A DNA stretch of 64,000 bases from Gyrodactylus bullatarudis (taxonomy: Eukaryota > Platyhelminthes > Monogenea > Gyrodactylidea > Gyrodactylidae). The stretch spans positions 29,613-93,612 of the forward strand of contig SSNU01000255.1 of assembly GCA_012064415.1 (NCBI GenBank), given 5' to 3'. Below, in pieces: positions 4,888 to 64,000 of the stretch (positions are counted from its first letter, which is position 1; every line of letters begins with the position of its first letter). Under the pieces are notes generated by a model, which worked only from the letters and a program-made list of their open reading frames with translations, had not been told where the DNA came from and did no database searches. A program made the position numbers and the translations under genes.

Positions 4888-4940
4888 GTGTGAGGAATAA
4901 GCGCTTTATTTCAGGCATACTCATCAGCCTCTTACATGCC
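4888..4940 (-). ncRNA. Hammerhead-like ribozyme motif, left arm
   Basis: Minus-strand order: GGCAU (4936-4940), stem I strand ending GAGG, CUGAUGA (4921-4927), GUAUGCCU, GAAA (4909-4912), 13-nt palindromic stem III AUAAAGCGCUUAU (4897-4909), U17, then CCUC completing stem I. AUGCC inside the 8-nt spacer is complementary to the upstream GGCAU. All invariant core bases of the hammerhead family are present. Sequence identical to the copy at 5116-5168. Confidence 0.72.
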
Positions 4941-5115
4941 AGATATATAGTACAAAAAACAAAGAAAATTAAAAATTGATCTGATTGGCTCTCTTTAGGT
5001 GTTTGGGGGCGGGGTAATCTGTATATTATCACATTGTTTTTTTGAACACCCAAACACCTAAAGAGAGCCAATCAGATCAATTTTTAATTTTCTTTGTTTT
5101 TTGTACTGTATATCT

Positions 5116-5168
5116 GGCATGTAAGAGGCTGATGAGTATGCCTGAAATAAAGCGCTTATTCCTCACAC
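5116..5168 (+). ncRNA. Hammerhead-like ribozyme motif, right arm
   Basis: GGCAU (5116-5120), GUAAGAGG, CUGAUGA (5129-5135), GUAUGCCU (5136-5143), GAAA (5144-5147), palindromic stem III to 5159, predicted cleavage after U5160, then CCUCACAC. Stem I is GAGG/CCUC. The spacer cannot form an ordinary stem II hairpin, but its AUGCC pairs with the upstream GGCAU. Confidence 0.72.
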
Positions 5169-5817
5169 TTTCGGCATCCTTTTTTCACTTATTGTGCTCT
5201 CAACGTTTGCACAACTAACCAATGATATTAGGAATCAGTTACAAACAACAAATATCTTCAGAATATTTTTAAAAAGTACGCATACATTGTACCAAAAAAA
5301 CTAAGGAATCGTATTTATCTAGACGAAAGAGACCAATAATATAATAATAGGTGTGAAAATTAACAAATTATTGGCAAAAAAAAATCTAAATATTAAATAT
5401 CTGGATCAACCTAAGTTAATACTGTAAATGTGTGTTTTAGATTATTACTCCATCGTTACCTATTAATTTCTTCTTATGATATGCTCAAACTAAGCATCTC
5501 TAGATCAGAAATTATAGAAAATCTACTTCAATTTTCTCAAGATTTTTAGAAGGAAATTATGTACTTTCTAAGCAGAACTCAAAGTACGATTGTTCAAGAT
5601 AATTTAGGGATATCTAATATTTTATCCAGAAGTACCAAAGAGAGCATGAAAATTATGAACTAACAAGGTTTAGATATCTATATGAATTCTCAAGGGACTT
5701 GATCTTCTGACTTTGATGCTGTGCAATCTTTCAACAAGCTGGAAGGCTTTATAAAAAAATTTATTGAAACTTAGGTCAATATTTGAATTCTCAGCCATGT
5801 TCATCCAAACGTTTCTA

Positions 5818-6383
5818 CGGTGATCGTCCAACATTTCCATTAAAAGTATCATTATTGCCAATTTCAAGAGCTTCATGAATTAACCTATTTCTAAAGTTTT
5901 TTGTACACTAAGAATTTTAACCTCCTCAAAATTGATTTTATGCCCATTATTGTTAAGAACATGTTGAAAAACATGTGACTTATGTTCTTTGATTCTTGTC
6001 TTAAAATTTCTACCAGTTTGACCAATATAACTTTCATCACAGCTACATTTTAACTTATAGATACCACAGCCTTCCAGAATGTTATTTTCATTTTTGGAAA
6101 TTTTATCAACAAGACTTATATTATTTTTAAAAGCAACTTTAAAGTTATATTTTTTATAGATTTTAGATAACAAAATATTAAGTGGACTATGTTCTAAAAC
6201 AATGATTTTTTTAATGTCTAAATTTTGATTTTTGATTATTTTAGGTGAATAAAATTTATTAAAAACCTCTTCCTTAATTCTATCGATCATTTTTGTAGGA
6301 TAACTATTTTTATTTAAAATAACAGTTAAATTACTAAGTTCCACATCCCAATGTTCTTTATCTGTGAGACGTAATGTTCTCAA
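5818..6383 (-). pseudogene. PLE GIY-YIG endonuclease C-terminal domain
   Basis: The open frame 6383-5880 encodes 167 residues. The motif GCGIYKLKCSCDESYIGQTG is the GIY-YIG nuclease signature preceded by the CxC found in Penelope-like elements, and RIKEHK follows. The frame shifts near 5885. The expected PLE tail (RLIHEALEIGNN) then continues in another frame to a stop near 5830. No reverse-transcriptase motifs are left upstream. The family is known to nick target DNA for retrotransposition; this copy is broken. Confidence 0.8.
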
Positions 6384-6645
6384 GATTTCACCACAAACTA
6401 CATTTTCTTTGTATAGGATAGGTGTGTTACTTTTGAAATTTGACAGTATATTTTTATTACAAAATTAAAATTAAATCAAATTAAATCTGACAAAAAATTA
6501 TATCCCCTTTTCTTTTCTGATTATCAATACTTTATTATCATAGGTCAGCCTCTTGTATTATTCTATTCTCTCATCTGATTTGACAAAACTGATAGGGATG
6601 AAATCATGAAAGTATATAAATAGTATTTTGTTTTTTGATAAACTT

Positions 6646-6704
6646 GTCGTACCACTGAAGAAGGCGTGTGAAAACAATCACCGTCGAAACGTTTAGATGA
6701 CCAT
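6646..6704 (+). ncRNA. PLE hammerhead-like motif with a conventional stem II
   Basis: GUCGUACCA, CUGAAGA (6655-6661), then a 24-nt segment whose ends GGCG..GUGA and UCAC..CGUC pair as a stem II hairpin, GAAA (6686-6689), ACGU as a minimal palindromic stem III, and UUAGAUGACC. Stem I is weakened here (CCA opposite UAG), whereas the copy at 42788-42847 keeps CCA/UGG. An extra A follows CUGAAGA. It is probably a PLE hammerhead, possibly mutated. Confidence 0.5.
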
Positions 6705-6995
6705 GACTGAGAATTCAAATATTGACCTAAGTTTCAATAAATTTTATTATAAAGTTGAAAGGCTATTATAAGTTGTAGAGCACCAAAAAGGTAGCATACT
6801 CGTTGACCATATTGGCGAATGAAATCATAAATGAGGTGTAAACCAATTAGAAAGTGGTTAATAAACTCTTGAATAATTTTTCTTCAATATGACCGAAATT
6901 AAAAAAAAAAGTTTATTTGAGTAATTTCAGGTTGAAAATAATAAAAGGAAAATAATTTTTGAGCAGTAAGAAAATAGCTTGTTATCCAAACTTAC

Positions 6996-9832
6996 AATTA
7001 AAGCTTGAGAAGCTTCATCCTGTGAGTCCATAACTGCCAGTGCCATCCTTTTGTCTCGTCTAAAAACAGAGATGAGATCAAATTTTTTATTTAATTACTA
7101 ATAAATTGTCAGACTTACGCCATAAAATTGATTTCAACTGGCTTAAGGTTAAACTTGTCGAATATTTCCAAAATGTCGTCCTTGGAAAATGAGTCTGGAA
7201 TGTTACTCAGGTGGAGAGTCTTTGATGGAGGATAAATATTACTAAAGTTTTTCGAATTTGGTTTTCTGAACCGGTGCAGTTTAGAGTCTGAATAGTCTTG
7301 GTTAAGACATCTCTGATTTGGTTCCTTTGGACTGGCCAACTTCAGGGAAGTATGCTTTGATGAATGAACTTTGAGGACACGACCCCAGAGAAGGGAACCG
7401 GATAAATTATTCATTGCTATTGTGAGATCATTTTACAATGTTTTAAGGCGGGGAGATGAATTGGATGGTTTAATGAAATTTGAGAAAAAATAATTTTGAT
7501 TAATAAATAAGTAGGAAAAGGGGAAATTTAATTAAATCTTACCAGTTCTGGCTTGAGATGGATTCACAAACTGTATGAGAGCTGTATCCAGTTTATTAAA
7601 TAGTATCTTCACCTTGACAACATCTCCGTATACGCCTGAGAGTTTTATAAATTGAAAAGTAAGGATTATTTTAACTCTCTTAAATGATTGAAATTTATGT
7701 GTTATTTCATTGATGCTCATCGGAATTAAAATTATAGAAGAGGAAATGATTGAATACTAGACCAATTTGGAATTTCTACCAATTGAAATCAATGAAAAAT
7801 TCAAAACGAATGTAGATCACTTTGTAGTTTGACAAAATATTTAAATAGATGGTTGAAAAAAGGGAGAGAAAATATAACCCCTTTTACCTTGAGTATGCTA
7901 GAGCATAGAAATCTTGAATAGAAAATTAGTACATTGATAAATGTGTAGAAGAGCACAACTAAGTCAAGTTGACGATTGATTTCTTTGCAAAATCTGCGCA
8001 CTTTACTAGGCCAAGATTAATATATGAAGCCTAATTGATATACGACCAAAAGTAGTATTGGGAAAAAAGTAGTAGTAATCGAGAAAAGAGTACTTTTCTA
8101 GAGAAAATGATTCCTAGACTTGATCTAGAATCATCAAAAAGTATTAACAACATCAAGTTTATTAATGATAATACAGAAATGAATAATAAGAAATAGAAAA
8201 AATTATTTTCTTTCAACATACCGAATAGAGTGAACAAAGCATCAGGATTAATTCTCTATAGGAGTGGATGGATGGAAGTATACGAATGTGGACAAGAGGA
8301 GAAGCAGAAAGTGTGTATGTGTAGGTTTGTGAATGGATTTCCAAATGTTATATTAGTATTTTTAAAGCATTAATCCATCGAAACAGCATTTTTGGCGATT
8401 TTTTTTGGATAGAGAATATAGTGATAACATTAGTAGTAGTAGTGGTATCGGTTAAATTCCAAAGGCAATTTTCAATTTCGGTGATGATGATGATGATCAG
8501 ATTGACGAGCACAGAGATGGAAGAGATGAGGAAAAGAGAGAGAATAGAATTAGAGAAATTAAAAAGATTCGATTCTTAAATAAGATTAATAAAATAAGAA
8601 AGGAGATCTTAATAACTAATAGCATTATCACTCAAAAATACTTGTATAAAAATAATAGCTAGTAACAAACTTGTTCATCTAAGCCGGAGACGATAAGAAC
8701 AGGACTTGAATGCATATCATTCATTTCCATATGCGAAATTGGCTGACCATAGTCGGGAAGGGGCATTTTGTTAGGCATGTCAAATGGAATTCGTCGATAG
8801 TTCATAGGATCCATTCTTTGCTTGTGAGAGGAGAGAGCCATGAAACTAGCCGTGGCGCTAGCAGCTTCTGGAGTTAAATTCATACCTGTCTGTTGTGCAA
8901 GAGAAGACAAATGATTAGCTAAACTGTTAATGAGGCCGCCTTTAATAGGAGATGCATAAGGACCGTCATTGTGAGAAGAATAACCACCCCGATGATGTGG
9001 AGGAGGACTTGATGGTTCTCCGCCACCCAAATTATCTAATTGTGCTTTTTCTTCTTTAGTCAATGGATGTGCAACATAATCACGACATTTGTCATTCTCA
9101 TTTCTCACTTCGAGGGGGCCCTCCTTGGATGAGAATTCTATTTGCATATTGCACGAATTTTTAAAGATACATTGACCATTTAGATGGAGTAGAGCGACAA
9201 ATGCTTGAACATGAGTCTCAAATTCAATTAGGCAATTCATAGTGCTGTTTTTGTTGAAGATTATGATACGATTAATCCTGCCAAACCTATGGAAGACTTT
9301 ATAGATAATAAGATGGTTGATTGGTTCATCCATAATCATGTCAATGACTACTCGGAGAGCTGTCAATGGTCTTCCAGACGAGACTTTGGGCAAATCAACA
9401 TCGACAATTTTGTTGGCATTTGAAACAGCAGCATTTGCAGATTTGCTATCAAAACTTGTCTCAAGTTGAGCATGAACAGAGTATTGAAAACCAATAGATC
9501 TGTCATTAAGAAAGAAAGGAAACTCGGTAAAATAATTCAACATGGCAACAGCATCATCGATACTTTCCATTTCAATCAAAACTTGGTTAGATCTTTTCAT
9601 CATCATTAAAAAGGAAATCTTTCCAAAAGGAATAGCAAAAAGAGCAACTTCATTTTCAGTCATTGAAGATGGAGTATTGCGAATGTGAATAACTTTTGAT
9701 GGTATATCAGACCTAGAATCCTCTTTGATGCGCTTCAGTTCCCCACGAGATGAATTTGGAACAATTTTTAAGTTGAAAGCTCTCTTCAAGTCTCGCTTAA
9801 TTGAATCAATTAAAAATTTTGCTTACTTTCAT
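6996..9832 (-). CDS. PTBP1-like: Polypyrimidine-tract-binding protein (PTB/hnRNP I family)
   Basis: An RNA-binding splicing regulator of the nucleus. Exons in reading order are 9832-9827 (ATGAAA), 9795-8671, 8255-8222 (34-nt microexon), 7635-7543, 7416-7119 and 7059-6996; every junction keeps the frame. RRM1 contains SKVIHIRNTP and QVLIEME; RRM2 contains LRVVIDMI and LNGQ. A proline/glycine-rich linker follows. RRM3 spans four exons (VLIVSGLDEQ, RINPDALFTLFG, VYGDVVKVKILFNK), and RRM4 includes SKNFSNIYPPSKTLHLSNIP, highly characteristic of PTB. The last coding exon is uncertain: the best candidate starts near 6865 (INHFLIGLHLIYDF, fitting the last RRM4 strand) and would run towards the PLE fragment at 5750-6753. 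The first intron is 31 nt. Transcribed divergently from CCT3. Confidence 0.9.
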
Positions 9833-9955
9833 TTTTACTGACGAAAAATTTAAATATTCAGGGTTTTAAAATATTTTTCAAACAATTATCGCCTTTGTAT
9901 TTTAGAATATTCTAGAAACTCCCGCTGATCTTAAAATTTTCAAACATCTGTAGTC
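9833..9955. promoter_or_regulatory. Shared divergent promoter of PTB and CCT3
   Basis: Only 123 bp separate the PTB start codon (9832, minus) from the CCT3 start codon (9956, plus), so both 5' UTRs and promoters must fit here or extend into the other gene. No TATA box at a convincing distance was seen for either gene. Confidence 0.6.
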
Positions 9956-11726
9956 ATGCAATTACCTGTTATAGTTTTAAGTAAGAAATACCTATAATTT
10001 CAGATCAAAATACCAAAAGAGAGCAAGGTTCTCGTGTTCAAATCAGCAATATTCATGCTGGTAAAACTGTTGCTGATGTTGTTCGCACATGTCTAGGACC
10101 TAGAGCCATGCTTAAAATGTTGATGGATCCAATGGGAGGTATTGTCATGACAAATGATGGCAATGCTATTCTTAGAGAAATAACAGTGGAACATCCAGCT
10201 GCAAAGTCAATGATTGAAATTGCTAGAACTCAAGATGAAGAAGTTGGCGATGGAACAACTTCAGTTATTGTCCTTGCCGGAGAAGTCCTCGCTGTTTCTG
10301 CTCCTCTTCTTGAAAAGAAAATTCATCCATCAAAAATAATTCGTTCTTACCGCACTGTTCTCGAAGATATGATCAAGATTATGAAAGAAAAATTCTCGTA
10401 AGTTTCTATTCAATTTTTTGCCTTACTTGCACTTTCTATTTTCTGGTTTACTTTTAGCTTCGAAGTTGATGTCAAATCTGACGAACAGCTCATCAATGTT
10501 CTCAAGAGTTGCATAGGAACTAAAATGATCAATAAATGGTCCGATATGGCTTGCTCCATGGCTATAAAAGCTGTAAAGACAGTTGTCGTTGAAGGAGATA
10601 ATCGCAAGGAAATCGACATCAAGAAATATGCCAAAGTTGAAAAAATTCCCGGTGGTCTTATTGAAGATAGCAAGGTTTTGGATGGTGTAATGATCAACAA
10701 AGATATTATTCATCCCAAGATGAGAAGACGAATTGAGAATCCTAGAATTTTACTTCTCGACTGCAACCTAGAGTACAAGAAGGGTGAAAGTCAAACTGCC
10801 ATGGAACTTTCCAATGAAGCTGATTTCACACGTGCTTTGGAAATCGAAGAAGAATACGTGAAAAAGATGTGCGAGCAAATTATCGAGCTGAAACCTGATC
10901 TCGTAATAACTGAAAAAGGTTGCTCTGACTTAGCTCAACATTTTCTAGCCAAGGCAAACATATCTGTCTTGCGTAGACTTAGAAAAACAGATAATCTCAG
11001 GATTGCTCGTTGTTCTGGCGCCACTATATGCTCTAGAACTGATGAAATAAAGGAGGAAGATATCGGTACCGGCGTTGGTCTTTTTGAAATCAAAACGATT
11101 GGTGATGAATACTTTACATTCCTGACCAAATGTAAGGCACCCAAAGCTTGCACCATCCTCCTTCGTGGAGCAAGCAAGGATATTCTCAATGAAGTCGAGA
11201 GAAATCTGAATGATGCTATGAATGTTGTTAGAAATATGTTATTGGATAACCATTTGGTACCTGGCGGAGGAGCCATTGAAATGGCTGTTGCCAATGAACT
11301 GACTCAGAAGGCAAAATCTGCTGCTACTGGTGTTGATCAGACTGCATACCTAGCAATTGCTTCTGCTTTAGAGGTATGTTTATAAGTTTAATTATTTAAT
11401 CAACAAACTACTTTCAAGTATATTTACATAATCATTTCTAGGTTATTCCAAGAACTCTGGCCCAAAATTGCGGTGTAAACGTTCTTAATACTGTCACAGA
11501 ATTGAGAGCTAGACATGCAATGTCATCATCTAATTGGATCTATGGTATTGATGGAGAAACTGGCAATATTGTGGATATGAATAAAACTAAGATATGGGAC
11601 CCCATTCTCGTAAAAATGCAAACTTTTAAGACTTCTATTGAGACTGCTATTCTTTTACTTAGAATCGATGATATTGTGTCTGGTACAAAGAAGAGCACTG
11701 ATCCAGATGCACCTGCTGCCCAGTAA
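9956..11726 (+). CDS. CCT3: T-complex protein 1 subunit gamma (CCT3)
   Basis: The gamma subunit of the cytosolic chaperonin TRiC/CCT, which folds actin, tubulin and other proteins with ATP. Exons 9956-9980, 10004-10397, 10458-11373 and 11442-11726 join in frame to 539 residues, the family's usual length. Introns are 23, 60 and 68 nt. Visible motifs: MQLPVIVLNQNTKRE at the N-terminus (split by the 23-nt intron), TCLGPRAMLKML, MTNDGNAI, the ATP-site GDGTTSVIVLAGE, KKYAKVEKIPGG, ILLRGA and LVPGGGA. The C-terminus runs through LLLRIDDIVSG. No broken residue was noticed. Intact and probably single-copy housekeeping DNA. Confidence 0.97.
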
Positions 11727-11807
11727 ACTCATTGAACTCATTCGAATTTACGAGTGCATTTTACCTGACGAATGCTTCTATCTTTGTAACTTTCTACTTC
11801 CTATGAT

Positions 11808-11813
11808 AATAAA
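11808..11813 (+). terminator. CCT3 polyadenylation signal
   Basis: AATAAA lies 82 bp after the CCT3 stop codon, a usual distance. Confidence 0.6.
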
Positions 11814-12734
11814 ATAACATTCATATCATAAACTACAAAGTGTTGAATTATTCATCTGGTATCCACTTTTACTGAGAATATAGAAATTCTTGATCTCAGA
11901 CAACAACAAAAAAATATATTGTAATTATAATACTTTTCTATTTTACTTGGTAGAGTGTTACATGAACCTTAAGGGGTACACACCAGTTTATTTAATACAT
12001 CTGAGGAATTTATTAAAATATAAATTTTGAAAAATAGTCATTTATTTATTGTACAATATTGTAGCTTTAATGTTTGTATAATCAAAGTTAGGCCAGGTCA
12101 TTTGAGGGGTGACTAAAAAGGGTTCATGCGTCATTGCAGCAAGTCTCTGATCTCTAACTAGAGAATTACAATTCGTTACGAAAGTTAAGCGTTCATTTAT
12201 CAAATGAGTTAAGGATGAGAGTCAATTCTTCTCGTGGTAGAAAAAAAGGTTTTGAAGGCGTTAACGAAAATCTAAAAATTCTCTGAGAAATTTTTTTGAG
12301 TGTAATGCGTTGAATCCAACCAGTCTACAGAAAATTTATGTACCTATTGATTTCCTAAATTAGTTAATACATAGATAAGTCTGTTATTTTTTTCCATAAT
12401 CAACTCCAGATTCTAAAGAGTCCAGAGTAACTGGATTTATACAGTTTAAATAAATGAAGTCAACACTGCTAGCTAGATACAAAGTTGAGGGATATTCTAA
12501 AAAGCATTTAAATTCATTCTTGCCAAGTAAAGGAAAGTATTACAAGTTCAAGTGCATTACATTCTCTCTAGATAATAATAGGTAATAGTGGAAGTGGTTT
12601 GGTTATAAAAATAGTAGTCAAATGTGTATAATCTCTGCTAAATGATATATATTTTTTCTTTCTACAATCTGTAATGCTTTCGTTTTATTTTTATTAAAAA
12701 ATAATCTCTCATCTTGTAATCTCCTCTCGTTATT
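11814..12734. other. Intergenic, nothing recognised
   Basis: AT-rich interval between two convergent genes. No ORF, RNA gene or repeat with clear boundaries was seen. Confidence 0.4.
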
Positions 12735-13015
12735 TCACTTCTGGCTCGGCTTCATTTTGTAGAGACCAGGTCGGAATTTAGATATGACAGTTGAGCCAGT
12801 CCACATAAGGGATGGTCGCAGGAGGTTGATCATATTACCAAATCGGAAAGACAATGCCTTATCAGCTGTATTTTCAGTAGTGGCTGGCAACAAATGATGA
12901 GCTGTCGGTACAAATAGTGCAGTTCCTATGAATATGCATGCAATCTTTGTTCGGTTGTCTGAGATGACATTTTTCACTTTATCATAAACCCTGGGAATGT
13001 TGGATCTGTACTCGG
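12735..13015 (-). CDS. Terminal exon of an unrecognised small membrane protein
   Basis: The acceptor TTTTTTCTATAG precedes an open frame of 93 residues to a stop at 12735. It begins AEYRSNIPRVYDKVKNVISD. A hydrophobic stretch follows (IACIFIGTALFVPTAHHLL, about 18 residues) and then a basic tail (SKFRPGLYKMKPSQK). An AATAAA lies downstream near 12690. A single membrane segment with a basic C-terminus would fit a small mitochondrial or ER protein, but no family was recognised. The upstream exon(s) were not found, so the start is unknown. Confidence 0.5.
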
Positions 13016-17304: not shown

Positions 17305-18849
17305 TACAGTTGTCGAAGTAATACGGTTCTCACTCTTATTTTATTGCATAACTTCCTTATTTTTCATCCGTTTTTGACCAAATATATATGAAAATATTCG
17401 AGGATGTTTTATGAATACTACTAAAGAAAGTTTCATTCAAAATTTAAAGACTGTTTCTTTTAAATACAAAATTACTATTTTTGATACATGAATGAAAACG
17501 AAGTAATATCATTCTCATTTATTCAAGTAATCAACTTGTATTCAAGTGAGAACAATTTTCGTCCTATAATAAATATTTAATCAGTATATCTATTGAACTA
17601 ACTATGAATATCTTTCAGATTATTAATGAACTCGTCATTATCGAAAAACAGAACTTTTAACCGAGTTCGATTCGAGAAGATTAAGCAACTAAAAAAACAT
17701 GGTTTAAGTAATAGGAAGATCGCCCAAATCATGAATTGCTCAAATACGACAATTAATAACTTATTGAAGAATAACGGGTACAAAAGATACCAAAAGAAAG
17801 CTGGCTCTAAATCAAAAATCAGCAATTTGATATTAGGACGAATCAAAAACATGGCTCAAAATCAAGGGAAAAACTGTGTTCAAATAAAAAATGAATTGAA
17901 ATTGAACATATCTGTTCGTGCTGTTCAAATGATTGTGAGGAAAAAATTTAATCTGCGTTGGAGAAAGGCTAAAAAGATCTGTCCCCTAACGGAAAAGAAT
18001 AAACTTGACCGTTTAAACTGGGTTAAGACTAAAATACATGAAAACATGGACTGGAAGAAGGCAATATTCTCGGATGAGAAAAAATTCAACTTGGATGGTC
18101 CGGATGGCCTTAGTTTTCACTGGGAATCAAAAGATGGTCCGTCTAAGAAAAGAATGAATAGAAATTTTGGTGGAGGGACAGTAATGATATGGGGAGCCAT
18201 AACATTCAACGGAATATTGCCTTTACAATTTGTTCAACCAAAAATGAACTCAGAAAATTATCAAAATCTCCTTGAAAATTCTCTATTACCATTCAAAGAG
18301 GAAATTAGGACAGAACAATTAATTTTCCAACAAGACAATGCCCCTTGTCACAGCTCCAATTCAACAAAAGAATGGTTTTTGAGAAATGACATAAAAGTTA
18401 TGACCTGGCCTGCTAGAAGTCCCGATTTAAACCCTATCGAAAATGTTTGGGGGTCACTAGCACAGAAAGTTTATAAAAATGGGCAACAATACTCAAGTAC
18501 CTCTGAGCTGAAAGAGGCAATAGTTAGAGAATGGAATACTTTTACAAAAGATGACTTATTACCTTATTTTATTTCCATGTATGAAAGGTGTATAGAAATT
18601 ATTGAAAAAAAAGGAGAATTTTTGAAATAAAGTTATGAGAATGGTATTACTTCGTTTTCATTCATATATCAAAAATAGTAATTTTGTATTTCAGATTAAT
18701 GTAAAAAAAATATTTAAAAAATTATTAGCATAGTATTATTAAATGATCATTTACAAGTCTTTTCATATATATTTGACCAAAAAAAGATGAAAAACAAGGA
18801 AGTTATGCAATAAATTGAAAGTGAGAACCGTATTACTTCGACCACTATA
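17305..18849 (+). mobile_element. Tc1-like transposon, apparently complete
   Basis: The left end TA-CAGTTGTCGAAG abuts the gap; the right end is CTTCGACCACTA-TA. Inverted arms of about 220 bp (17305-17525 and 18627-18847) each contain two direct repeats of GAAGTAATAC(G)GTTCTCA type, one at the tip and one about 185 bp further in. This is the IR/DR layout of Sleeping Beauty-type elements. TA flanks fit the family's target. The enclosed transposase is uninterrupted. Confidence 0.85.
17626..18630 (+). CDS. Tc1 transposase (DD34E), intact
   Basis: 334 residues, the usual length for Tc1 transposases. The N-terminus carries two helix-turn-helix units (KIKQLKKHGLSNRKIAQIMNC and a second around residues 65-115) for binding the arm repeats. 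The catalytic triad is visible: IFSDEKKFNLDG (D1), FQQDNAPCHSS (D2), and SPDLNPIENVWG, whose E lies 34 residues after D2. The GGGTVMIWGA block typical of the family is present. There is no stop or frameshift. Start is ATG at 17626, preceded by a possible TTTCAG acceptor, so a 5' UTR intron is possible. Could be active or a recent arrival. Confidence 0.93.
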   Translation: MNSSLSKNRTFNRVRFEKIKQLKKHGLSNRKIAQIMNCSNTTINNLLKNNGYKRYQKKAGSKSKISNLILGRIKNMAQNQGKNCVQIKNELKLNISVRAVQMIVRKKFNLRWRKAKKICPLTEKNKLDRLNWVKTKIHENMDWKKAIFSDEKKFNLDGPDGLSFHWESKDGPSKKRMNRNFGGGTVMIWGAITFNGILPLQFVQPKMNSENYQNLLENSLLPFKEEIRTEQLIFQQDNAPCHSSNSTKEWFLRNDIKVMTWPARSPDLNPIENVWGSLAQKVYKNGQQYSSTSELKEAIVREWNTFTKDDLLPYFISMYERCIEIIEKKGEFLK

Positions 18850-19995: not shown

Positions 19996-20225
19996 AATCA
20001 TAGATCTCCAGTTTATAATTGGTGGAGATATTCTGAATCAAAAAAGGACATTTTTTTCAAATACAGAAAATCAGAAACATGGAATAGAAAATTGAATTAA
20101 TACAAAGAAAAGTAAAGTTGGAAATCGATGATTTTAACAGAAATCTCGATTTTTTATAATTGGTGGAGATATTCTGAGTCGAAAGAGCACTTTTTTTTCA
20201 AATACAGAAAATCAGAAACAGAGAA
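19996..20225 (+). repeat. Tandem duplication of about 100 bp
   Basis: TATAATTGGTGGAGATATTC and the following AAATACAGAAAATCAGAAAC occur at about 20015-20078 and again at about 20156-20218, about 140 bp apart with a few differences. Confidence 0.75.
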
Positions 20226-21564: not shown

Positions 21565-21719
21565 TGTGTAACAATTTATCTCATATTTATAAGAAGAAGA
21601 CTGACACCGGGAAGTATCTACATTATGCCAGTTTCAGTCCTATCTCTCATAAAGTTGGCTTAGTAATTGGTCTAAGTAAGAGGATAAGAAAAATAGCAAG
21701 CCCTGGTCTTACGAAATAG
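21565..21719 (+). pseudogene. PLE reverse-transcriptase C-terminal remnant
   Basis: One frame reads VCNNLSHIYKKKTDTGKYLH followed by SFSPISHKVGLVIGL. This is the K-T-TG-YLHY...HK signature at the end of PLE reverse transcriptases. It stops at 21717-21719 and the link to the endonuclease frame needs frameshifts. Confidence 0.65.
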
Positions 21720-21778
21720 AGAACGTAAAGTTAAGTCTGAAGGAAAATGGTTATCCCGGTAAATTTGTTGACAAATTC

Positions 21779-22303
21779 ATGAATGTATCTATGGATAGAA
21801 ATGAGGTTGTCGATACAGATGAATTGGAAAAAACAACTATTTTTATGAAGCTCAACTTCAAAGGTGATGGGTTCAGTGATAACATTAGAAGAAGGTTAAA
21901 TGATCTCATCAATCAACATTATAATAACATACAATTGAAAATTGTATTTAAAACTCAGAGATTGTTTAGTTTGATTCATAAGGATTTACTGAAGCCAGAA
22001 GAGAAAACTCTATTAGTTTACAAATTTCAATGTGATTGTGGAGCCTCATATATAGGTAGAACGATTAGGATATTATCTACACGAGCGGAGGATCATCTGA
22101 AGAAGGATACTGCGGTTACAAGGCATCTTAGACAAGAAGATCATACAGCTTCAATTTCTAATTTTTCCGTTTTATACAAAAACCCTAATGACGACAGCAT
22201 AGATGTATGGGTGAAAGAAAAGTTTCTTATTAACCTATATAAACCTAATCTATGTGTTCAAAAGAATTATTCCTATAATCTTAAATTACCTTGGCCAATG
22301 TGA
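21779..22303 (+). pseudogene. PLE linker and GIY-YIG endonuclease
   Basis: 174 residues. YKFQCDCGASYIGRTIRILS is the CxC plus GIY-YIG core (the first GIY is degenerate), followed by a RAEDH segment matching R..EH. The tail VKEKFLINLYKPNLCVQKNY is the typical PLE ending. The frame itself is open, but the upstream part is broken, so it is a remnant. The stop at 22303 is about 150 bp before the hammerhead-like motif. Confidence 0.75.
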
Positions 22304-22454
22304 GCTTTTTTACTTTTCTCTCCACTGTTACTATTTATTGGAGAGTTTTGGTGTTTTTTTCAGCTTGCATTTTATTCTTATTTTCTTTGACTTTACTATT
22401 TCTTTCATGAGTTGTAAAATATTATCTTGAATGAACTTTTAACTAATATCATTT

Positions 22455-22502
22455 TTGAAGAATGACCACTGATGATGCTTCAAGAAATGTACATTTGGTT
22501 TT
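22455..22502 (+). ncRNA. Hammerhead-like motif in the PLE 3' region
   Basis: UUGAAG (22455-22460), AAUGACCA, CUGAUGA (22469-22475), UGCUUCAA (22476-22483), GAAA (22484-22487), palindromic stem III AUGUACAU (22487-22494), U22495 and UGGU. Stem I is ACCA/UGGU. The spacer end CUUCAA is a perfect 6-nt complement of the upstream UUGAAG. All core bases are intact. Its homologue at 63837-63882 has compensating changes in both helices. Confidence 0.7.
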
Positions 22503-22560
22503 AATATATCTTCTTTTAATTTTCTAAATTATGAATATAAGTGGATTTTCGGACGTGTTT

Positions 22561-23861
22561 GAAAAACTACGTGAATTACTTATTCGTAATTTATCTCTAT
22601 CTAAAAATGATTGATTTTTGCATTTTCGATCACATTATAGGTGATCTTAAATTCTTCTAAAAGTTAAGAGTCTGAACTTCAGACAATGAATAATCTATTA
22701 TAATGGATCAAAGAATTAAAGTTTATAAAAAAGTGATACTATTCCCTTTTATCGTTTAAAAGAAAATATTTAGAAGACCTAGATAATTCCTTCGAATTTG
22801 GTATTTTTTCAAAGGTTTAAACAGTTTGAAGAAAGTTAATGTGTTCTTTTCAAACGTTTTTAATGACTGGCAAATAAAGTATTCACATTATTGTCTCGAG
22901 AGATTTCAAATTAGAAAAATTCCCATAACCGTAGAATTTAGCTTCTTTGTGACTTTTAGCTTCTTTGAAAATACTAAATGCAGTGTTAAAAATATACGAC
23001 AAAAGTACAATATCTTAAATGAAGTCTAAAAGAGAATAGATCAATGAATCAAGGCGTTTCATAACGAGAAGAAACAATATTATGCCGTATTATAAAAAAT
23101 CAACTTTTTCACTGATCAATATATACTGAATTGTAGTTAATACTCTGTTATATTCCATGTATTAGTATGGAGAATAGTTCTTATCGGTTCTTATTCTAGG
23201 TTCTAGTGATTGTTTTCAAGCCTTGTTGGTAGTGAATGGTTATTAGAGAGACAATTAACTATCATCTTACGGGCATGAGAGTCTTAAAGTTTCTAGTTGG
23301 CGCCAGACTTCGATTGTGTTGTTGCGAAAATCCCGATTTTTGGACTTTGAGATGAAATTTTTCGATTGATTTCAAAGTAAGAGAGTGATCAAAAGTTGCT
23401 ACTTAACACTTGGAACGATCAGACAAGAAGAATTTATTAATAGAACACAATATTTTTATAGACTTATTCAGGATCATCAAGATCCGATTGCCGGTCTGAT
23501 TTTTATCCAAAATCTTTTCTTTGAATAAATAACAGAGTTTCAAGATAAACTGCAACATAAAAAAGTAAAGAAAAAAGAATTTTCTGCTATCATAATCATA
23601 GAGAGGAATTTCATTCTGAAAAGTAAAATGTGACATGTGATTTCAGGTTATAAAAAACCAAGAACAATCGATCCTGCTGCCTAAGATTTAGAAGGTTCAG
23701 GAATAGAAAACTGCTCTACATTTAAAATTTTTCAATCTGATTCAGAAACCTTATCTTGAAAAGGATTTGAATAAAGATGATAAAAGAGTTCAAACATGGA
23801 TTTTTTCAGTGAGGTGTTGGGTAACCTTTGTTTTGAGCTGAGCCACCGAAGCTATTATTAT
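22561..23861. other. Non-coding interval
   Basis: No gene or clear repeat recognised; short open frames here lack motifs. Confidence 0.35.
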
Positions 23862-23883: not shown

Positions 23884-23935
23884 GTCTCACAAATAAAGTC
23901 TTTATTTCGGACATACTCATCAATATAATTCATTG
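23884..23935 (-). ncRNA. Hammerhead-like motif with mutated core
   Basis: Minus strand: UUGAUGA (23917-23923) replaces CUGAUGA, so the invariant first C is U. The 8-nt spacer GUAUGUCC, GAAA (23905-23908) and an imperfect palindrome follow. Stem I can still pair with two G-U wobbles. Probably inactive. Confidence 0.45.
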
Positions 23936-24077
23936 CACTATAATTACCAATGTACAAATAATTGTTTTTATGTGAAAACGGGTCAGTCCTGGAAACAGAG
24001 ATGAACCAATTAAAAATGAAAACTTGTAAAAAACCAATAAAAGTTGGATAACACTTAGTGTAAATTTGTACTAATAT

Positions 24078-24131
24078 GACATGTATCACACTGATGAGTA
24101 TGCCCGAAATAAAGGCCTTATTTGTGAGAAG
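24078..24131 (+). ncRNA. Hammerhead-like ribozyme motif
   Basis: GACAU (24078-24082), GUAUCACA, CUGAUGA (24091-24097), GUAUGCCC, GAAA (24106-24109), palindromic stem III AUAAAGGCCUUAU (24109-24121), U24122, UGUGA. Stem I is UCACA/UGUGA, five pairs, quite different from the GAGG/CCUC of the copy at 5116. GACAU pairs with AUGCC except for one A-C mismatch. Confidence 0.68.
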
Positions 24132-54500: not shown

Positions 54501-57500
54501 GGTGTACAAATTTCAATAGTCTATAACATGACCGTCTGATTTACCATGTACAGCATCAAATAATTCCCTCAGATAGTTTTCTAATGCTTCCACTGTCCTT
54601 GGCCCATTATACGTATCTATTTTTTCACCTCTGTTGAATACTTTGAGTGCTGGAACAGTTTTGACCATGTTCCTTGTGCACAGTTTCTTGAAAAGTGAAC
54701 AATCAACTTGAGCGAAAGTTATCTGTGAGTTTGTCTTGGAAAGATCTCTGGCAGTAGCCGAGTATATGGGCGCCAGCTGCTTGCAGTACTTGCACCAAGG
54801 CATGTAGAATTTGACCATGACCAAATCACTTTTGCCAATGGTGCGTGGGAAAGTAGCAGGAGTCAACTCCACTACATTTGACTGAGCAAAAGCAAAGAAA
54901 GTTACAACGATTATCCAGTAGGTCTGCATGCTCTACTTTTTGTGAATGATGAACGCTTCGAATCTCTATTTATAACCTGACATGTTGTTTTGGATTCTTA
55001 TTGGACGATCAATCATCGTGTTTATCTTCGATAAATATCAATCATCATCTTCAACACTTCTTTCGACCTGTTTTATATTTAAAGCTTGTTGGCATGAAGA
55101 TGAAAATTTACTATTTTTAGAAAAAACTCGATATTTTTCTCTGGATTCACAGAAAAAAATAATTTTTTGAATTCATAAACGAAATAAGCTAATAACATGT
55201 GGATACTCGAAGAAATTCCGAAAAAATTCGAACTGACCAAAATTAGACCGTTTTTCGAATTCCGAAAATGCACTAAATTTTCAACTTTTGAGCTCAACAA
55301 TGCTAAAAATTCAAATGGTTTGATTTCCCACAGTAATAACAAATTTCAGTGCAAGACTCCCTGACAATTGAGGACGAAACATCTGTTAATGAAAGATGAT
55401 GCCAGAGAATTTCAAAGAGATAAGCGCTTTATTTCGGGAATACTCTTCAGTCTATACATGCCAATGTTTATATATTTTTTTAATATCCACATGTTATTAG
55501 CTTATTTCGTTTTTGAATTCAAAAAATTATTTTTTTCTGTGAATCCGGAGAAAAATATCGAGTTTTTTGTAAAAATAGTAAATTCTCATCTTCATGTTAA
55601 TATGTTTTAGTAGTATTTATTTTTTTGAACGATAATATTGTCGAACTTCATCAAAAATATTACTATTATTTGGTTCTGAACTCATGAGAGAAGGTTAGAG
55701 AAAACGGACGTATATTATAGTGATTAACGTTATATTTCGCCAGGTCTCTTCAGACTCTACCCTGGTTAACATATAAATACTATCACAATGCGAAATTTTT
55801 GTGCACTTCCATTGGTTGAGCTGATTGTAAATCGTATCGAAGAAGTCAGGGGGGGAGGGATCACTTCTCATTTCACATTTTGCCTCTTCAGGAATGCATC
55901 AATTTGTAACTGACCAGTGGAACCTCTTCTTCTTCGTTTAGTCGCTGAGCGTTTTTCGTTCTTTCTCTTCTCGCTAATTACAGGTTGGCTTGTAATTTGA
56001 TTATCAACTGTTGACTTCTCTTTAGTTTCAATTATTACCAACTCTGAACCTGTTGCTGGGGCGGAACTCTGGATATTAACAATTTGATTATCGGCTACAG
56101 CCAACTACTCATTATTTTCACTTCTATCCATTTGAGTTGAGCTTACGCGAGGGGGTGGGGCATTTGGTTTCAGAATGTTGCTAATTTTTGTCAGCTGTTT
56201 ACTTTTTATATGAAGACCTTTGGAACCAAGTTTTGATGCTAAGATTTTTTTGTACACAAAGATCTGGCTTCCATTTCGTAATGTAGTGGCCTTCTGCGCT
56301 GTTCAGCATAGATTCTCTCACACGACAGGGGGCACTTGGATCGACTTGATATAGAATTTTGAAGTTAGACTCATCTAACTTTTTTTGTAAAAATAGTAAA
56401 TTCTCATCTTCATGTTAATTTGTTTTAGTAGTATTTATTTTTATTGAATGAAATTAGAATTTGACTTGTTGACAAATTACGCTTGTCAGAAAAAATTTCT
56501 TTGCTGGTTTTCCTGACCAATCTGCAAGATATTCCTTCTATTGACTTTATCCCATGTTCAAATTTTGAGTATAAAATTCGAGCACATTCGTAATAAAAAA
56601 TTAGATTCTTAATTTTTTAAATTCAATAAAATAAATATATTTAGAGACAGATGTACATTAGATTATCAAGAATGATCTCTCCAGTGTTATTATAGCTCAA
56701 TCATAATTCCGTAATTTTTATCCAAGCATATGAAATAATGTGTTACTGACCAATAAGATACGACACTTATTCTCAATATATAAATGGCAATGTAACTTCC
56801 TCAAAATAAAAAAAATATTTCTCAAAAATCACAAGATGCAGATCTGTTTTGTGTTTATTCTGACTTTCCTTGCTATTTCACAATCGGCCCCAGTTCAGCT
56901 GACAGAGGCCAATTTTGAAAGTACCCTCATGAATTATGATTTGGCCTTGGTTAAGTTCGATGAGGCCTGGTGTAAGACTAGCCAGAAGTTCGCGCCAGTA
57001 TTTGAAGCTCTCGTTGAGGACCTCACCAAGAAAAACTCTCCAATTTTACTAGCTCAAGTTGACTGTTCGAAGAATAAGAGTTTGTGCAAAAGGACAGATG
57101 TCAAATCAATTCCAAAGCTCAAAGTCTTTAGTACGGGAGTTCTTATCGACACTTACCAAGGACCTAAGACTGCATACGCAATTGAAACTTATCTTGCAAA
57201 TCTGTACAAACAAGTAGTTCAAGCCTTGAAAGTATGATTCAATAAAAATAATTGGTCATCACTGATGACTCATCAGTATGTTTCGTTATTTGATTGAAAA
57301 AAAACTCATCTTGCTTTGTCTTTTGGGGAGATTTTTAGCAATAAAAACTGAGCTTGAAATAAAGGCCTTATTTATATAAAAAGATAGATTTTCGATCAAA
57401 AAAATAAATCGAATAAGATGAATGAGTCTGTTTGCTCAACTTCTGCCGCATCAGGGTCAAAGAAAAGGATTCATTGCCCAATTTGCCCATACAACAGAGA

Positions 57501-60500
57501 TAGAAAAAATACAGAAATATGTGATAAATGTGGAAAAGCTATTTGTAATGTTCCTTTAGTTTATATTTGTTCAAATTACAAATGAATTGTATGGAAATTT
57601 GAAAATAAAACCAAACTTTTACCAATTTTTAACATTTCCATTTTTGTATTTTGTCTTTCTTTTCTAATGTCTAATTATTCAGCATTTTAACTCATTTCTG
57701 CATTCAAATTTCTTAGTAAACGAAAAGATGTATTTTTTGGTTTTCATAAATGCTTAGTCAATATCTACTCAATACGATTGAAAAGATTTGGAACGATTTT
57801 GAGAGTTATTTCTCATGTAAATGATTTATGATTCAAGGGCCATAACTCCACTAAAAATATTTTCAACACGATCTAGCATTCTTTGCATTAAAAGCTATTA
57901 TCTCTAAATGTTAGAAGTCAGATAAGCAGGTGTCAATTCCATAAGAGAGTCAAATAATATTCAACTCACGGCGGCAGATGTAGACGCGTTTCTTCCTTAT
58001 TAGAACTCGTCAGTACACCATAGCCAGGATTCGAACCCGGGTCTTCAACGTAGTGAGGCAATGCTTCTTATGTAATTGACACTTGCATGATTAAAAAGCT
58101 GATATAATTAATCTAAATTCTGCTATAGATAACTCTGAAAGTTAGGAATAGAAATTTCAGGCTCAAGAACCAAACCAAGTTCAAGAATTTTACTCTTTTA
58201 CCAATTCTCTTGTCTTAAAGACTGTGAATTGAGAGCAAAATCAAAGAAATTGCATTTATGATGCAAGATAGAGCTTCCCATAAAATCTGTTCATGTTCCT
58301 ATAGCTTATCAGTCAACCACCACTTTTCGTTAATCTCACAAGCTTTACATGTTACTTAATGTATTTAGGTAGGAATAGAACATGAATAGACCAAAAATAT
58401 ATCGAAAATTTTATCGCAGTTTCATGAACAAGGGTGGCCAATGAGTTTCGCAACTGACTGTAACATCTAGGTGTGTGAGAAGACAACCTCCATCAAGTTA
58501 GATTCATACGTATATATTAACCTGTGACTACACTTGGCTAGTAGGTTAATTTTCTAAAAGCATGATTCGTGTATTAATAAATCGGCCATGTGATAATTTC
58601 GTCCAAGGGGTATTTGAAAAATTGGTGACTTGGACCTTTTAGAATCATTCTTAACATTTTTTGAAATTTAACAATGAAAATCATAAGCTGTGAGCATATA
58701 TAAATTTTGGTTTACTTTAGGATCTTAGCACAGTCCTTAAATTGGATACAATCTTACAAGGAAATTCCGTTTTATTCACGCAATGGTTAAATAGCGAAAA
58801 CTCAAAAGATCTTAGTCTTTATATAACAAGTAGATTTATAAAAGACAATATAGTTTACAATGTAACCCAAGCTATTGACAAGGTGAAAAACTCTGAGGGT
58901 TTCTATATCAGTGACGATTTCACACTTGATTACTTTGCACAAAAGGAATGTCTCAAGAGATCCGGGTCATTTTACTCTGGTGAATTCGGTATGGCTGTAA
59001 AGATTAAATTTCTCTACACTAAAATCATCCAGAACGCTGTCAATGAAATGGTTTCGCAAGGCAAAGTTGATGAAATATATCAAAAGTAATTTATAAATAT
59101 CATTGAAATGTAATGAAGAAAATAAAAATAACACCGGACACTGATATCATTGATCAATGATCAATACTAAAAGTTTAAGATTAAATGAAAATTATAATTT
59201 ACAATTAAGAAAATCAATTAAATAAATAAATTTTGTAAATTTTTAACCCTTACTTTAGGGGCGATTATTTTCGGAAATTATCAGTTATTATGCAGCTCCG
59301 AATAGTATCAAATAATCTGTTTCATAATAGACTCTAAATAAATCTCAAAAAGATATCTAACCTCTATTTGAACCACGATTAATAGATAGAAAATTCAATA
59401 AAAGATCGACTCTCTTAGAAGATAGTTGAGTTGAGTTATATAATAGGTTTAGAAGAATTACTCAGAGCAATTAAGCGTTAAAGAAATTAATGAGCTTTTC
59501 AGCGAGAATTAGCTATGAATATTGTAGCTAAAACGTACTGAAATAGTTTAGCATACACCAGATATATGAGGTGTATTCCCCTCTGCCCTTTTAGTACGTT
59601 TTAGCTACAACATATATATTAACTGAATATGAATAAACCTACTTGACATGAAGATGAGAGTTTTTACAATATATATTTTTCTCCGGATTCACACAAGAGA
59701 ATAATTTTTCGAATTCTAAAACGGAATGAGCTAATAAGATGTGGTTATTCGAAAAAATTCCGAAAAACTTGAATCTGACCAAAATAAGGCCGTTTTTCGA
59801 AAAACGAAAATGCACCAAATTTCCACTTTTTCAACTTTTGAACCCAAAATTTTTATCGATTTCGATGATTCGAAGCAGTTAAGTGCAGATATACGAGACC
59901 AACATTAGACGAAGAAATATTCGAAAGACGGCCTAATTTTGCTCAGATTCAATTTTTTTTCGGAATTTTTTCGAATATCCACATCTTATTATTCCGTTTT
60001 AGAATTCAAAAAATTATTCTTTTCTGTGAATCCGGAGAATAATATATTTTGTAAAATTAGTAAATTCTCATCTTCATGTCAACTAGCTTTGAATAATTTC
60101 TTGTTTATTTAATTTTTGGTGTTAATTTTCACCACTTATTTATATTAATAGATTATTAAAAATATTATATTATTATTAAAAAGGTTTAGACTATTTAGAT
60201 TTTAGTTTTGGTAAATGTCAATAACTGTTATAATAACTGTATTTAATTTTAGATATATCAAATCCAATTACGACTATAGTAAACTCTGTTACAATACGAT
60301 TGATGATCAGCTAAGCTTCAATTTAACATCATCGACATTTTCGATACCGCTGAATGAGTTCCTTGGAATCATCATCGTTTTAATCGTGTGCTGCGTGCTT
60401 GCCTTGATTGTAACGATTGCAGAAGTCCTTCTTATCAAATTTGTAAAGGTAATCTTGCTTGATTCTGTCACGATTATCTAACAGGATCTTTTAAAAAGGA

Positions 60501-61617: not shown

Positions 61618-61849
61618 GACAAAATGGAGACAGGTTGGCTACCATCCCAATAAAGTGACAATAAAGATATTTATAAATAAACAAGAATTCTTACCCACGT
61701 AAATACAGTTTTAATAATTATAATTAAAAGTTGAAAACTAGAATAGACTTAAACTTTTCACTGTGATGATCATAGATTTCAAAATCAAGAATTAAAAATA
61801 TGGATAATTTAAGAATTTTCGAAAATTAAAACGTTTTTTGGCTGTTTTG

Positions 61850-62260
61850 ATATCTTATCGGTTCGTTTCATTGTTAGATTAGGGAAAATTATTCAAAATA
61901 TAGAGACTGAACTTTTTCTTGGAAAGAGTAATTTTCTCTCAAATTCTACGGCCAAATTCGAAATCTTTGTCTAATTTTGATCCTGAATATCAATATTTAA
62001 CTGCTTCAAATCTTTGAAATCGATAAAGATTTTGGATTTGAAAGTTGAAAAAGTGGAAATTTGAAACATTTCCGAAATTCAAAAAAACTGCTCAATTTTG
62101 GTCAGATTAAATTTTTTTTAGAAATTTTTTTTGTATTCAAAACTAATCAGCTCATTTCATAGTGGAATCCAAAAAATAAATTTTTTCCCGACTTTCTGGA
62201 TAAAAATATTGAGTTTTTTGTAAAAATAGGAAATTCTCATCTTCATTTCAATCAGGTTTA
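61850..62260. repeat. Family C element, diverged
   Basis: The end GAAATTCTCATCTTCATTTCA and interior AAATCGATAAAGATTTTGG blocks match the family; the left end is unclear. Confidence 0.5.
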
Positions 62261-62430
62261 GATCGTTAAAATGAAAAAAGTTTGAGAGAAAATTTCACCT
62301 TGCCAAAATTTTTATTTTTGAAAATGCCATCATAAACAAACAAAAAAAACAATCTTTTTATTCCGAATGGCAAGAAAAATTTTATTTTCCGAATTGAAAT
62401 AATTGACATTTTCAAACAAAAGATTTCTGT

Positions 62431-62733
62431 TTGAACGATAATATTGTCGGACTTCATCAAAAATATTACTATTATTTGGTTCTGAACTCATGAGAGAAGG
62501 TTAGAGAAAACGGACGTATATTATAGTGATTAACGTTATATTTCGCCAGGTCTCTTCAGACTCTACCCTGGTTAACATATAAATACTATCACAATGCGAA
62601 ATTTTTGTGCACTTCCATTTGTTGAGCTGATTGTAAATCGTATCGAAGAAGTCAGGGGGGGAGGGATCACTTCTCATTTCACATTTTGCCTCTTCAGGAA
62701 TGCATCAATTTGTAACTGACCAGAGGAACTTCT
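62431..62733. repeat. Direct duplicate of 55625-55927
   Basis: Same orientation, offset 6806 bp, near identical including the hammerhead-like motif. Confidence 0.85.
62522..62571 (-). ncRNA. Hammerhead-like ribozyme motif (duplicate 2)
   Basis: Same sequence as 55716-55765, with CUGAAGA at 62553-62559 and the CCAGG/CCUGG complementarity kept. Confidence 0.66.
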
Positions 62734-62889
62734 TCTTTTTCTGGTCCAAAATTTTACGCTGATCACGAATCTGATCTCAAAATAATGCTAGAGAGCCCAC
62801 GAACTGAGATATTGGCCAGAACACAAACTTGCACGAAATTTCCGACTATCACTACAATAATTTCTAAGTGAAAGGTGATGCCTGACTAT

Positions 62890-62942
62890 TTGAAAGAGAT
62901 AAGCGCTTTATTGCGGGCATACTCTTCGGTCTATACATGCCA
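62890..62942 (-). ncRNA. Hammerhead-like motif with mutated core
   Basis: Minus strand: GGCAU, GUAUAGA, CCGAAGA, GUAUGCCC, GCAA, AUAAAGCGCUUAU, C, UCUUU. Two core positions differ (U to C in CUGA; A to C in GAAA), while GGCAU/AUGCC and stem III are kept. Probably inactive. Confidence 0.45.
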
Positions 62943-63275
62943 ATATATACAAGGTTTGAAATTACAAAATTAAATATGATTGGTTTAACCTTTCAACCAC
63001 TTATGAATCATGTGGTGTGTTCTTGCCTCTCCTAAGCTTTTTGAGGAGTGAGTACCAAACACACACAAATACACATACATGCCTCATAATAGTGTACAAT
63101 GGTAATTATAATTAGTGTAAAATACATCAAATAACATAAGAGATTTACAATTAACAATTATTTCTCTTCATGACACGTTATAATTATTTTGAGACATTAA
63201 TTGCCTTATTTCCTCGAAAATATTCTGGGGGTGCTGACTAATGGTCATGCTGGTAGTTAGAACGACGAAAGAGAT

Positions 63276-63328
63276 TTGGTGAATAAAAGCTTTTATTTTC
63301 GTCGGCTCTCTTCAGACCTTACACCGAC
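63276..63328 (-). ncRNA. Hammerhead-like ribozyme motif with 16-bp palindromic stem III
   Basis: Minus strand: GUCGG (63324-63328), UGUAAGGU, CUGAAGA (63309-63315), GAGCCGAC, GAAA (63297-63300), perfect palindrome AAUAAAAGCUUUUAUU (63282-63297), C17, ACC. Stem I is GGU/ACC. CCGAC at the spacer end complements the upstream GUCGG. Two 16-bp direct repeats (CATGACACGTTATAAT near 63168 and 63358) lie either side. Confidence 0.65.
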
Positions 63329-63789
63329 TTGAGCAGTTATATATACATATTACAAGAACATGACACGTTATAATTAGTTACGAAGTTTTATAAATTCAAG
63401 AAACTTCACAAGTTTTTAAAGAAGCAAAGTAAAGAGGGATTGAGACTCAATCATTGAGTCAAAAATGAGGTGATCAAAGATTGCCGCCCTCTTCAATCTA
63501 AAGACACTGTTCTCATTCTCTCTTCGGGTCTGCTACTCTCTGGTATCTGACCAATAATTTCATTTTTTCCGGTAATGAACCTTAATATGAAACAGAAGTA
63601 ACACTGTTGAATATAAGAAAAAATGAGGAATCTAACGGTTACCAAATTTTGGGGGTATAAAAGGGGCCCCCTAATTAAAGCGGGGAAAAAAATTTGCAAA
63701 AAAATGAAAAATAAGGGTATTTTATTGCGTCAAAATCTAAATAACTAATTTAGTAAGAAACTTTAGCTCAATGGTAAATTAAGGGAGAG

Positions 63790-64000
63790 GGTGAAGCATT
63801 AATTTTTTGTAGATATATAAGAAAAGAATTTTTATTCACTAAATGTACATTTCTTTATGGTTCATCAGTAGTTACACATAAATAATGATAAAAGTTTAAA
63901 GTTCATTGAAAATAATATTTTACAATTTTTGAAAGAAATAGTAAAAGTTGAAGAAAATTAGAATAAATGTAAGCTAAAAAAACACCAAAACTCTTCAATA
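63790..64000 (-). mobile_element. 3' end of a second Penelope-like element, running out of the window
   Basis: The reverse complement matches about 22310-22510 (GAGTTTTGGTGTTTTTTT and ACTATTTCTTTCA blocks). The coding part would lie beyond the window end. Confidence 0.65.
63837..63882 (-). ncRNA. Hammerhead-like motif in the second PLE 3' region
   Basis: Minus strand: UUUAUG (63877-63882), UGUAACUA, CUGAUGA (63862-63868), ACCAUAAA, GAAA (63850-63853), stem III AUGUACAU (63843-63850), U, UAGU. Stem I is ACUA/UAGU. CAUAAA complements UUUAUG. Compared with 22455-22502, both helices have changed on both strands while the core and stem III are identical. Confidence 0.7.

Follow-up and report, generated by a model that had tools for sequence, protein, structure and literature searches.

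The 64,000-nucleotide stretch of Gyrodactylus bullatarudis DNA analysed here (contig SSNU01000255.1, positions 29,613 to 93,612; hereafter the window) carries scattered hammerhead ribozyme variants in which the core motif CUGANGA is separated from GAAA by an insert of 8 nt. The original prediction, an earlier reading of the same DNA, held that this insert contains a segment, P', that pairs with a segment P upstream of stem I, and that the resulting pseudoknot stands in place of stem II. Our analysis adds what that reading had not named, i.e., the identity of the carriers: judged by sequence, they are Penelope-like retroelements (Penelope-like elements, PLEs) of the GIY-YIG kind in a neodermatan flatworm. 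We consider it very likely that the copies are type I hammerheads of these PLEs, with a stem II of one pair or none and with the P/P' helix taking its role. On this account, the hammerheads would mostly survive in scattered pieces of the elements. Stem II would have shrunk to the 10.1-11.1 pair or to nothing, and the remaining insert nucleotides (P') would pair with P, just 5' of stem I, in a helix about 5-7 bp long. This helix would keep stems I and II side by side, replacing stem II together with its usual loop contact. As stem III is short and in many copies palindromic, the active form may be a dimer, e.g., of the copies on either side of an element. Tandem PLE transcripts would be split near each open reading frame (ORF) start by cleavage after H17. 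What the sequence shows is the placement, the conserved core, the pairing kept along P/P' and in stem I, and the palindromes; folding, cleavage, dimers, and any part in transposition are inferred from these.

The CTGANGA-N8-GAAA pattern was found ten times in the window against 0.33 expected in shuffled sequence, and 4865 times genome-wide against 156 for the reversed pattern (77.3 Mb, 471 contigs). Its recurrence is thus well beyond chance, and all nine sites listed in the original prediction are present, each reading CTGANGA, 8 nt, and GAAA. Nine of the ten window matches are ribozyme-like, and all nine of these carry the type I core CUGANGA...GAAA...UH, the CUGANGA/GAAA part of which was itself the search pattern. 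The tenth match, at 6655(+), has no stem I, and the covariance model described below is silent there at E<=10; it was set aside as a chance match. Eight nucleotides is the dominant insert among lengths of 6-9 nt, although lengths 6, 7, and 9 pooled still exceed background. With all four lengths pooled, the whole genome gives 6882 matches against a background of 697.

Pairing was scored in 89 non-identical copies read from the window and from fetched loci. These loci were chosen for carrying the pattern, a GIY-YIG match or an Rfam match, so that they do not sample the genome at random; exact repeats of one 80-nt stretch, copies near locus ends, and copies with N were excluded ahead of the count. 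Some copies in the window are not independent: those at 55753(-) and 62559(-) are 97.8% alike over 319 bp, and those at 4927(-) and 5129(+) belong to the two halves of a single palindrome, 91.7% alike over 338 bp. The covariance model that had been proposed for these copies (R1, with alignment A2) was built from 45 copies selected for a P/P' run of at least 4 pairs and for stem I, and it therefore leans towards the structure. With this model, all nine sites, of which seven had been used to train it, are recovered at E<=1.2e-5, and two decayed window copies are added, one at 23889-23940(-) with E=1.3e-4 and the other at 62895-62945(-) with E=0.0021. The proposed comparison with the Rfam hammerhead models yielded no hammerhead match in the window at E<=1. 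In ten loci scanned at E<=10, the same models gave two sub-threshold matches, one to a copy with the 8-nt insert (L009) and one to a canonical copy (L013). Rfam models missed all but one such copy in the scanned stretches, and similar copies elsewhere may therefore be uncounted. The Rfam type III hammerhead model gave no match in the genome or in any control, and two family patterns gave none in viral contigs.

Pairing between P and P' had been claimed to be kept across families of differing sequence, and the larger sample bears this out. At least four contiguous Watson-Crick (WC) pairs occur in 62 of the 89 copies. When the upstream segments were shuffled 1000 times, such copies numbered 13.0 on average and 23 at most. 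The runs gather in two registers, -6 (42 copies) and -5 (20 copies), each of the 12 other registers holding 0-6. When the copies are grouped by insert, at least half of the members pair in 23 of the 36 sequence types (5.3 after shuffling, maximum 12). A run is present in 45 of 58 copies with stem I and in 17 of 31 without it. Among the 52 copies that have both a run of at least five pairs and stem I, 42 show a linker of 3-4 nt between stem I and the nucleotide facing insert position 3. Taken over the whole helix, complementarity between the insert and nucleotides before stem I is conserved, as in a loop II/pre-stem-I pseudoknot.

To allow for descent, a null was made in which each column received its substitutions separately along a tree built from the copies, in 400 runs and with four measures. 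In the 56 copies with a CTGATGA core, 79.2% of cells in register -6 are paired against a null mean of 52.5% and a maximum of 76.2%, and all four measures gave 0/400. In the other 33 copies, 64.1% of cells in register -5 are paired against 42.7% (4/400); their 14 WC runs exceed the null maximum of 11 (0/400), and the other three measures range from 2 to 4 of 400. Neighbouring registers were reached by the null in 6 to 400 of 400 runs over the four measures, some of them also being unusual but less so. The grouping by the fifth core base, used for this null and for alignment A1, was set after its link to register had been noticed. A1 comprises 47 distinct CTGATGA copies picked by core base and not by pairing; 72.0% of its cells are paired against 47.7% in shuffles, and its covariation score is 0.622 against 0.231 (both 0/500). 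All 7 pairs of A1 have changed on both sides, with 105 such cells against 44.3 in shuffles. Furthermore, three family patterns, in which one or two pairs were left free between transition partners, occur at 404, 379, and 503 places genome-wide, and their reversed controls at 0. Among the first 100 matches listed for the first pattern, the free pair is G-C in 80, A-U in 9, G.U in 7, and A.C in 4; among 100 matches listed for the second, it is A-U in 57, G-C in 38, A.C in 4, and G.U in 1.

Stem II is reduced throughout. The claim that the insert cannot form an ordinary stem II agrees with the sample, where a second pair, and with it a usual stem II of at least two pairs, is possible in just 5 of 89 copies. 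Positions 10.1 and 11.1 themselves are pairable (WC or GU) in 74 of 89 copies. By type, they are G-C in 46, G-U in 14, U-A in 13, A-A in 8, U-U in 5, and other combinations in 3 (including one A-U); the 15 copies without any 10.1-11.1 pair are chiefly A..A (8) and U..U (5). Thus, the wording "in place of stem II" holds strictly for these 15 copies and is too strong for the majority, in which one stem II pair is still possible.

The core blocks follow the classic type I arrangement and are not permuted: stem I comes first, then CUGANGA, the insert, GAAA, stem III, UH, and the second strand of stem I. Stem I is present at all nine window sites, and in the sample, 58 of 89 copies have at least 3 WC pairs after a UH (12.0 on average and 21 at most after shuffling), in keeping with the stem I pairing claimed before. 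Among 68 copies scored, H17 is U in 34, C in 22, and A in 12, G being barred by the scan itself. Self-cleavage at H17 would be expected from this anatomy and from precedent. Stem III is an exact palindrome in 23 of the 68 strings scored (e.g., AUGUACAU, AUACGUAU, AUGCGCAU, AAUAAAGCUUUAUU, and AAUAAAAGCUUUUAUU); this suggests, without proving it, the dimeric action described for PLE hammerheads.

The placement of the ribozymes connects them to PLEs. A genome search for GIY-YIG domains gave 19 matches, of which ten were taken as loci, and seven of these (L040-L045 and L047) have a same-strand ribozyme 185-472 nt after the GIY-YIG domain. PLE terminal placement was scored by this distance to the domain. 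L047 holds a single ORF with reverse transcriptase (RT) followed by GIY-YIG; 7 of the 50 relatives of this ORF name an organism, and all are flatworms: Trichobilharzia (3), Schistosoma (2), Dicrocoelium, and Sparganum. In L048, which has no ribozyme, both domains lie in one ORF in reverse order. Thirteen copies with the 8-nt insert precede an ORF start with a common motif (e.g., MNISGFSDVFEKLREL and MTISQHPQNIFEEIRQL; the motif was set by eye), which lies 36-69 nt past the core start for twelve of them and 238 nt past it for the other. Homology between copies, as judged by eye, often ends about 55-70 or 105-145 nt past the core start; these ends resemble, and may correspond to, the PLE "tail" of PMC11167929. 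Tandem Repeats Finder (period limit 500) returned four rows in the window, all short arrays with periods of 20-27, and none at the ribozymes.

Outward-pointing ribozyme pairs, found at 4892-5164 in the window and in L013, L020, L042, and L044, had raised the idea of a DNA transposon whose terminal inverted repeats carry the ribozymes. We rejected it: no target-site duplication was seen by eye at three pairs, and the ORFs with RT and GIY-YIG fit PLE pieces. Inverted ends are usual for PLEs.

Several results weigh against the pseudoknot helix or against its working in a PLE ribozyme. Covariation beyond phylogeny, on which the original prediction had been made to hinge, is found for the whole helix with the tree null and for no single pair. 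In an R-scape-like per-pair test, in which the register of each copy was taken from its best pairing, no P/P' pair is significant (best E=0.34 for 48 copies in register -6 and 6.8 for 20 copies in register -5); three register -6 pairs are within the top seven scores. Two of five measures on A1 stay within the shuffles (the count of both-side-changed pairs, and further pair types, 133/500), and 27 of 89 copies have no WC run of at least 4 pairs, including 13 of the 58 with stem I. In the second family pattern, 37 of the 38 G-C copies share the same linker start and so represent few events. In the third, the 76 lettered rows among the matches listed read by eye as 74 C-G, one C.A, and one U.G, with no compensated U-A pair. 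With regard to the carriers, L045, one of the seven ribozyme-bearing GIY-YIG loci, has a broken GAAA, and three of the ten loci (L039, L046, and L048) have no ribozyme at E<=1. As for function, the Anolis PLE hammerhead of PMC11167929 cleaved only with PLE protein, was dispensable for insertion in vitro, and showed no RNA-seq ends at the cut site.

If the P/P' complementarity were an accident inherited from a few ancestors, its pairing being unselected, then few substitution events, the lack of a significant single pair, and the absence of compensation in the third pattern are what one would see. We nevertheless regard this as highly improbable: the null with independent columns on the tree misses the observed pairing in register -6 (0/400) and the WC runs in register -5 (0/400), and runs of at least five pairs comprise 31 distinct P/P' strings among the 89 copies, roughly ten types by eye. 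It is also unlikely, if less so, that P' has a partner other than its own upstream P, either the P of another ribozyme in trans or a downstream copy of GGCAU. The exact palindromes in stem III, which suggest dimers, would suit such an arrangement, as would the second GGCAU (P) that lies 23-27 nt past GAAA in 11 of 16 GGCAU-family copies. However, a downstream P copy is the rule in the GGCAU family only, and the steady P-to-stem I linker of 3-4 nt argues for an intramolecular contact. The second GGCAU, a possible competing partner for P', is found in the window copies 5113-5164(+) and 4892-4943(-) and in L006, L007, L009, L013, L026, L041, L042, L044, and L051; in other families, a downstream 5-mer of P is seen in 4 of 31 copies, at a distance of 58-71 nt.

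A closer competitor is an ordinary minimal PLE hammerhead, with a one-bp stem II and a six-nt loop engaged in the usual pseudoknot, in which stem II is merely short. We put this at slightly better than an even chance, and for the copies that keep the 10.1-11.1 pair, it overlaps with the reading that the P/P' helix takes the role of stem II. That pair is possible in 74 of 89 copies, as G-C in 46, and both short stem II elements and pseudoknots are already reported in PMC3088659. In contrast, 15 of 89 copies are without even this pair, and in the A..A subfamily (UUUAUG/CAUAAA, 3 copies), position 11.1 belongs to the P/P' run. For subfamilies unable to pair 10.1 with 11.1, such as the copy at 63838-63884, a bolder possibility, which we hold to be rather doubtful, is a strand-swapped stem II in which P/P' itself stacks on G12.A9. 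The 3' strand of stem II would then be kept as P', and the 5' strand would come from upstream of stem I. Nucleotides 10.1-10.2 would cross the deep groove as the short loop of an H-type pseudoknot, to go by general knowledge of pseudoknots, and the two interlocked helices (I and P) would hold the fold with stem II absent.

The abstract of Lunse et al. from 2017 reportedly mentions pseudoknots that join loop II to nucleotides upstream of stem I. According to PMC3088659, stem II is commonly reduced to two pairs and has a single pair in one active case; the paper also predicts a pseudoknot in about 40% of hammerheads, and its section 7 offers a precedent for our interpretation. PLE hammerheads are described in PMC6155905 and PMC7761336 as minimal, without helix III and/or characteristic tertiary interactions, the latter calling their role unknown. 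The literature already contains hammerheads of PLEs, pseudoknots between loop II and the region before stem I, and one tested stem II of a single base pair. The copies described here join both precedents: they are of type I and borne by PLEs, and they have a predicted pseudoknot helix at the place of stem II. A limited literature search, lacking two key papers, found no description of such a PLE-borne type I form.

The published hammerhead with a one-bp stem II resembles our copies in that feature and, in our own reading, in its local order of P, stem I strand, CUGANGA, and P'; its pseudoknot is required for activity, which was rescued by compensatory change. It differs in that stem II is the open end there (type II), whereas here the insert leads straight into GAAA (type I) and the host is a eukaryotic retroelement. 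Known PLE hammerheads share with ours the carrier, the type I order, the reduced stem III, the suspected dimer action, and the many scattered copies; in contrast, pairing of the insert with P is conserved here, and stem II has one pair or none. The Poseidon PLE hammerhead of Anolis (PMC11167929) is likewise carried by a PLE with RT and GIY-YIG and lies at the junction of pseudo-LTR (long terminal repeat) and ORF, but its cleavage required PLE protein. The Type-SGC non-circularly permuted hammerheads (PMC10085705) also have a core with pseudoknots and a helix linking stems I and II, although their core blocks stand in another 5'-to-3' order than the classic type I found here. Metazoan non-LTR retrozymes (PMC7229834) carry canonical type I hammerheads within mobile repeats as well; no tandem repeats of 150-450 bp, as in those elements, lie at the ribozymes of the window, and stem II of the window copies is not four bp long. 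If a base-paired helix does serve as the tertiary contact, the ribozymes of PLEs would not have to be regarded as weak relics, and the present copies would show how little stem II a natural hammerhead requires.

Canonical hammerheads with a GUCC/GGAC stem II exist in the same genome, with 200 exact-form copies, and 29 of 57 Rfam type I matches in the genome are above the cut-off. The loci L029-L038 hold hammerheads of canonical type I whose stem II is longer (GUCC/GGAC or near), and several of the exact-form copies listed are close inverted pairs.

Within the window, the P/P' and stem I pairs are as originally claimed, with one mismatch each at 24091(+) and 55450(-). The copy at 5113-5164(+) belongs to the GGCAU/AUGCC family and has an intact core, stem I GAGG/CCUC, and U at H17; its inverted partner of the same family is at 4892-4943(-). 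The two stand at the ends of a palindrome (4860-5196), facing outwards, and this palindrome is probably made of two inverted PLE terminal pieces. Rfam matched mir-4662 at 4976-5080 (42.1 bits, cut-off 97); this is the centre of the palindrome, and a microRNA was rejected. The copy at 22453-22500(+) has a 6-bp UUGAAG/CUUCAA helix, stem I ACCA/UGGU, the palindromic stem III AUGUACAU, and U at H17. Its core starts at 22469, P occupies 22455-22460(+), and P' occupies 22478-22483(+) and abuts GAAA. About 150 nt 5' of this ribozyme ends an ORF (21680-22303(+)) with a marginal GIY-YIG match (PF01541, 22.7 bits, cut-off 22.6), and a PLE-type ORF start, MNISGFSDVFEKLRELLIRN, follows at 22531-22590(+), 62 nt past the core start. 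Another ORF, at 5880-6464(-), has a partial and marginal GIY-YIG match (23.7 bits, cut-off 22.6).

The copy at 24075-24127(+) pairs GACAU with AUGCC (one mismatch) and has stem I UCACA/UGUGA and U at H17; the decayed copy at 23889-23940(-) is inverted relative to it. At 55415-55466(-), GGCAU faces AUUCC (one mismatch), with stem I AGA/UCU and C at H17. The CCAGG/CCUGG helix is carried by two near-identical copies at 55719-55769(-) and 62524-62575(-), the latter with stem I AGU/ACU, C at H17, and an ORF start, MSSEPNNSNIFDEVRQYYRS, 68 nt past the core start. The other decayed copy, at 62895-62945(-), is of the GGCAU family. GUCGG/CCGAC is found at 63277-63331(-), together with stem I GGU/ACC, a 16-nt palindromic stem III, C at H17, and an ORF start, MTISQHPQNIFEEIRQLMSQ, 67 nt past the core start. 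Finally, the copy at 63838-63884(-) has the helix UUUAUG/CAUAAA, A..A at 10.1/11.1 and hence no standard stem II pair, stem I ACUA/UAGU, and U at H17.

Apart from the ribozymes, the window holds transposase-like ORFs at 17608-18630(+) and 941-1516(-), with DDE_3 accompanied by HTH domains and with DDE_1. A TCP-1/cpn60 ORF lies at 10402-11385(+). The first row by E-value for this ORF is a low-quality fish record (59%), and its best named relative by identity is the T-complex gamma subunit of the monogenean Cichlidogyrus casuarinus (77% identity).

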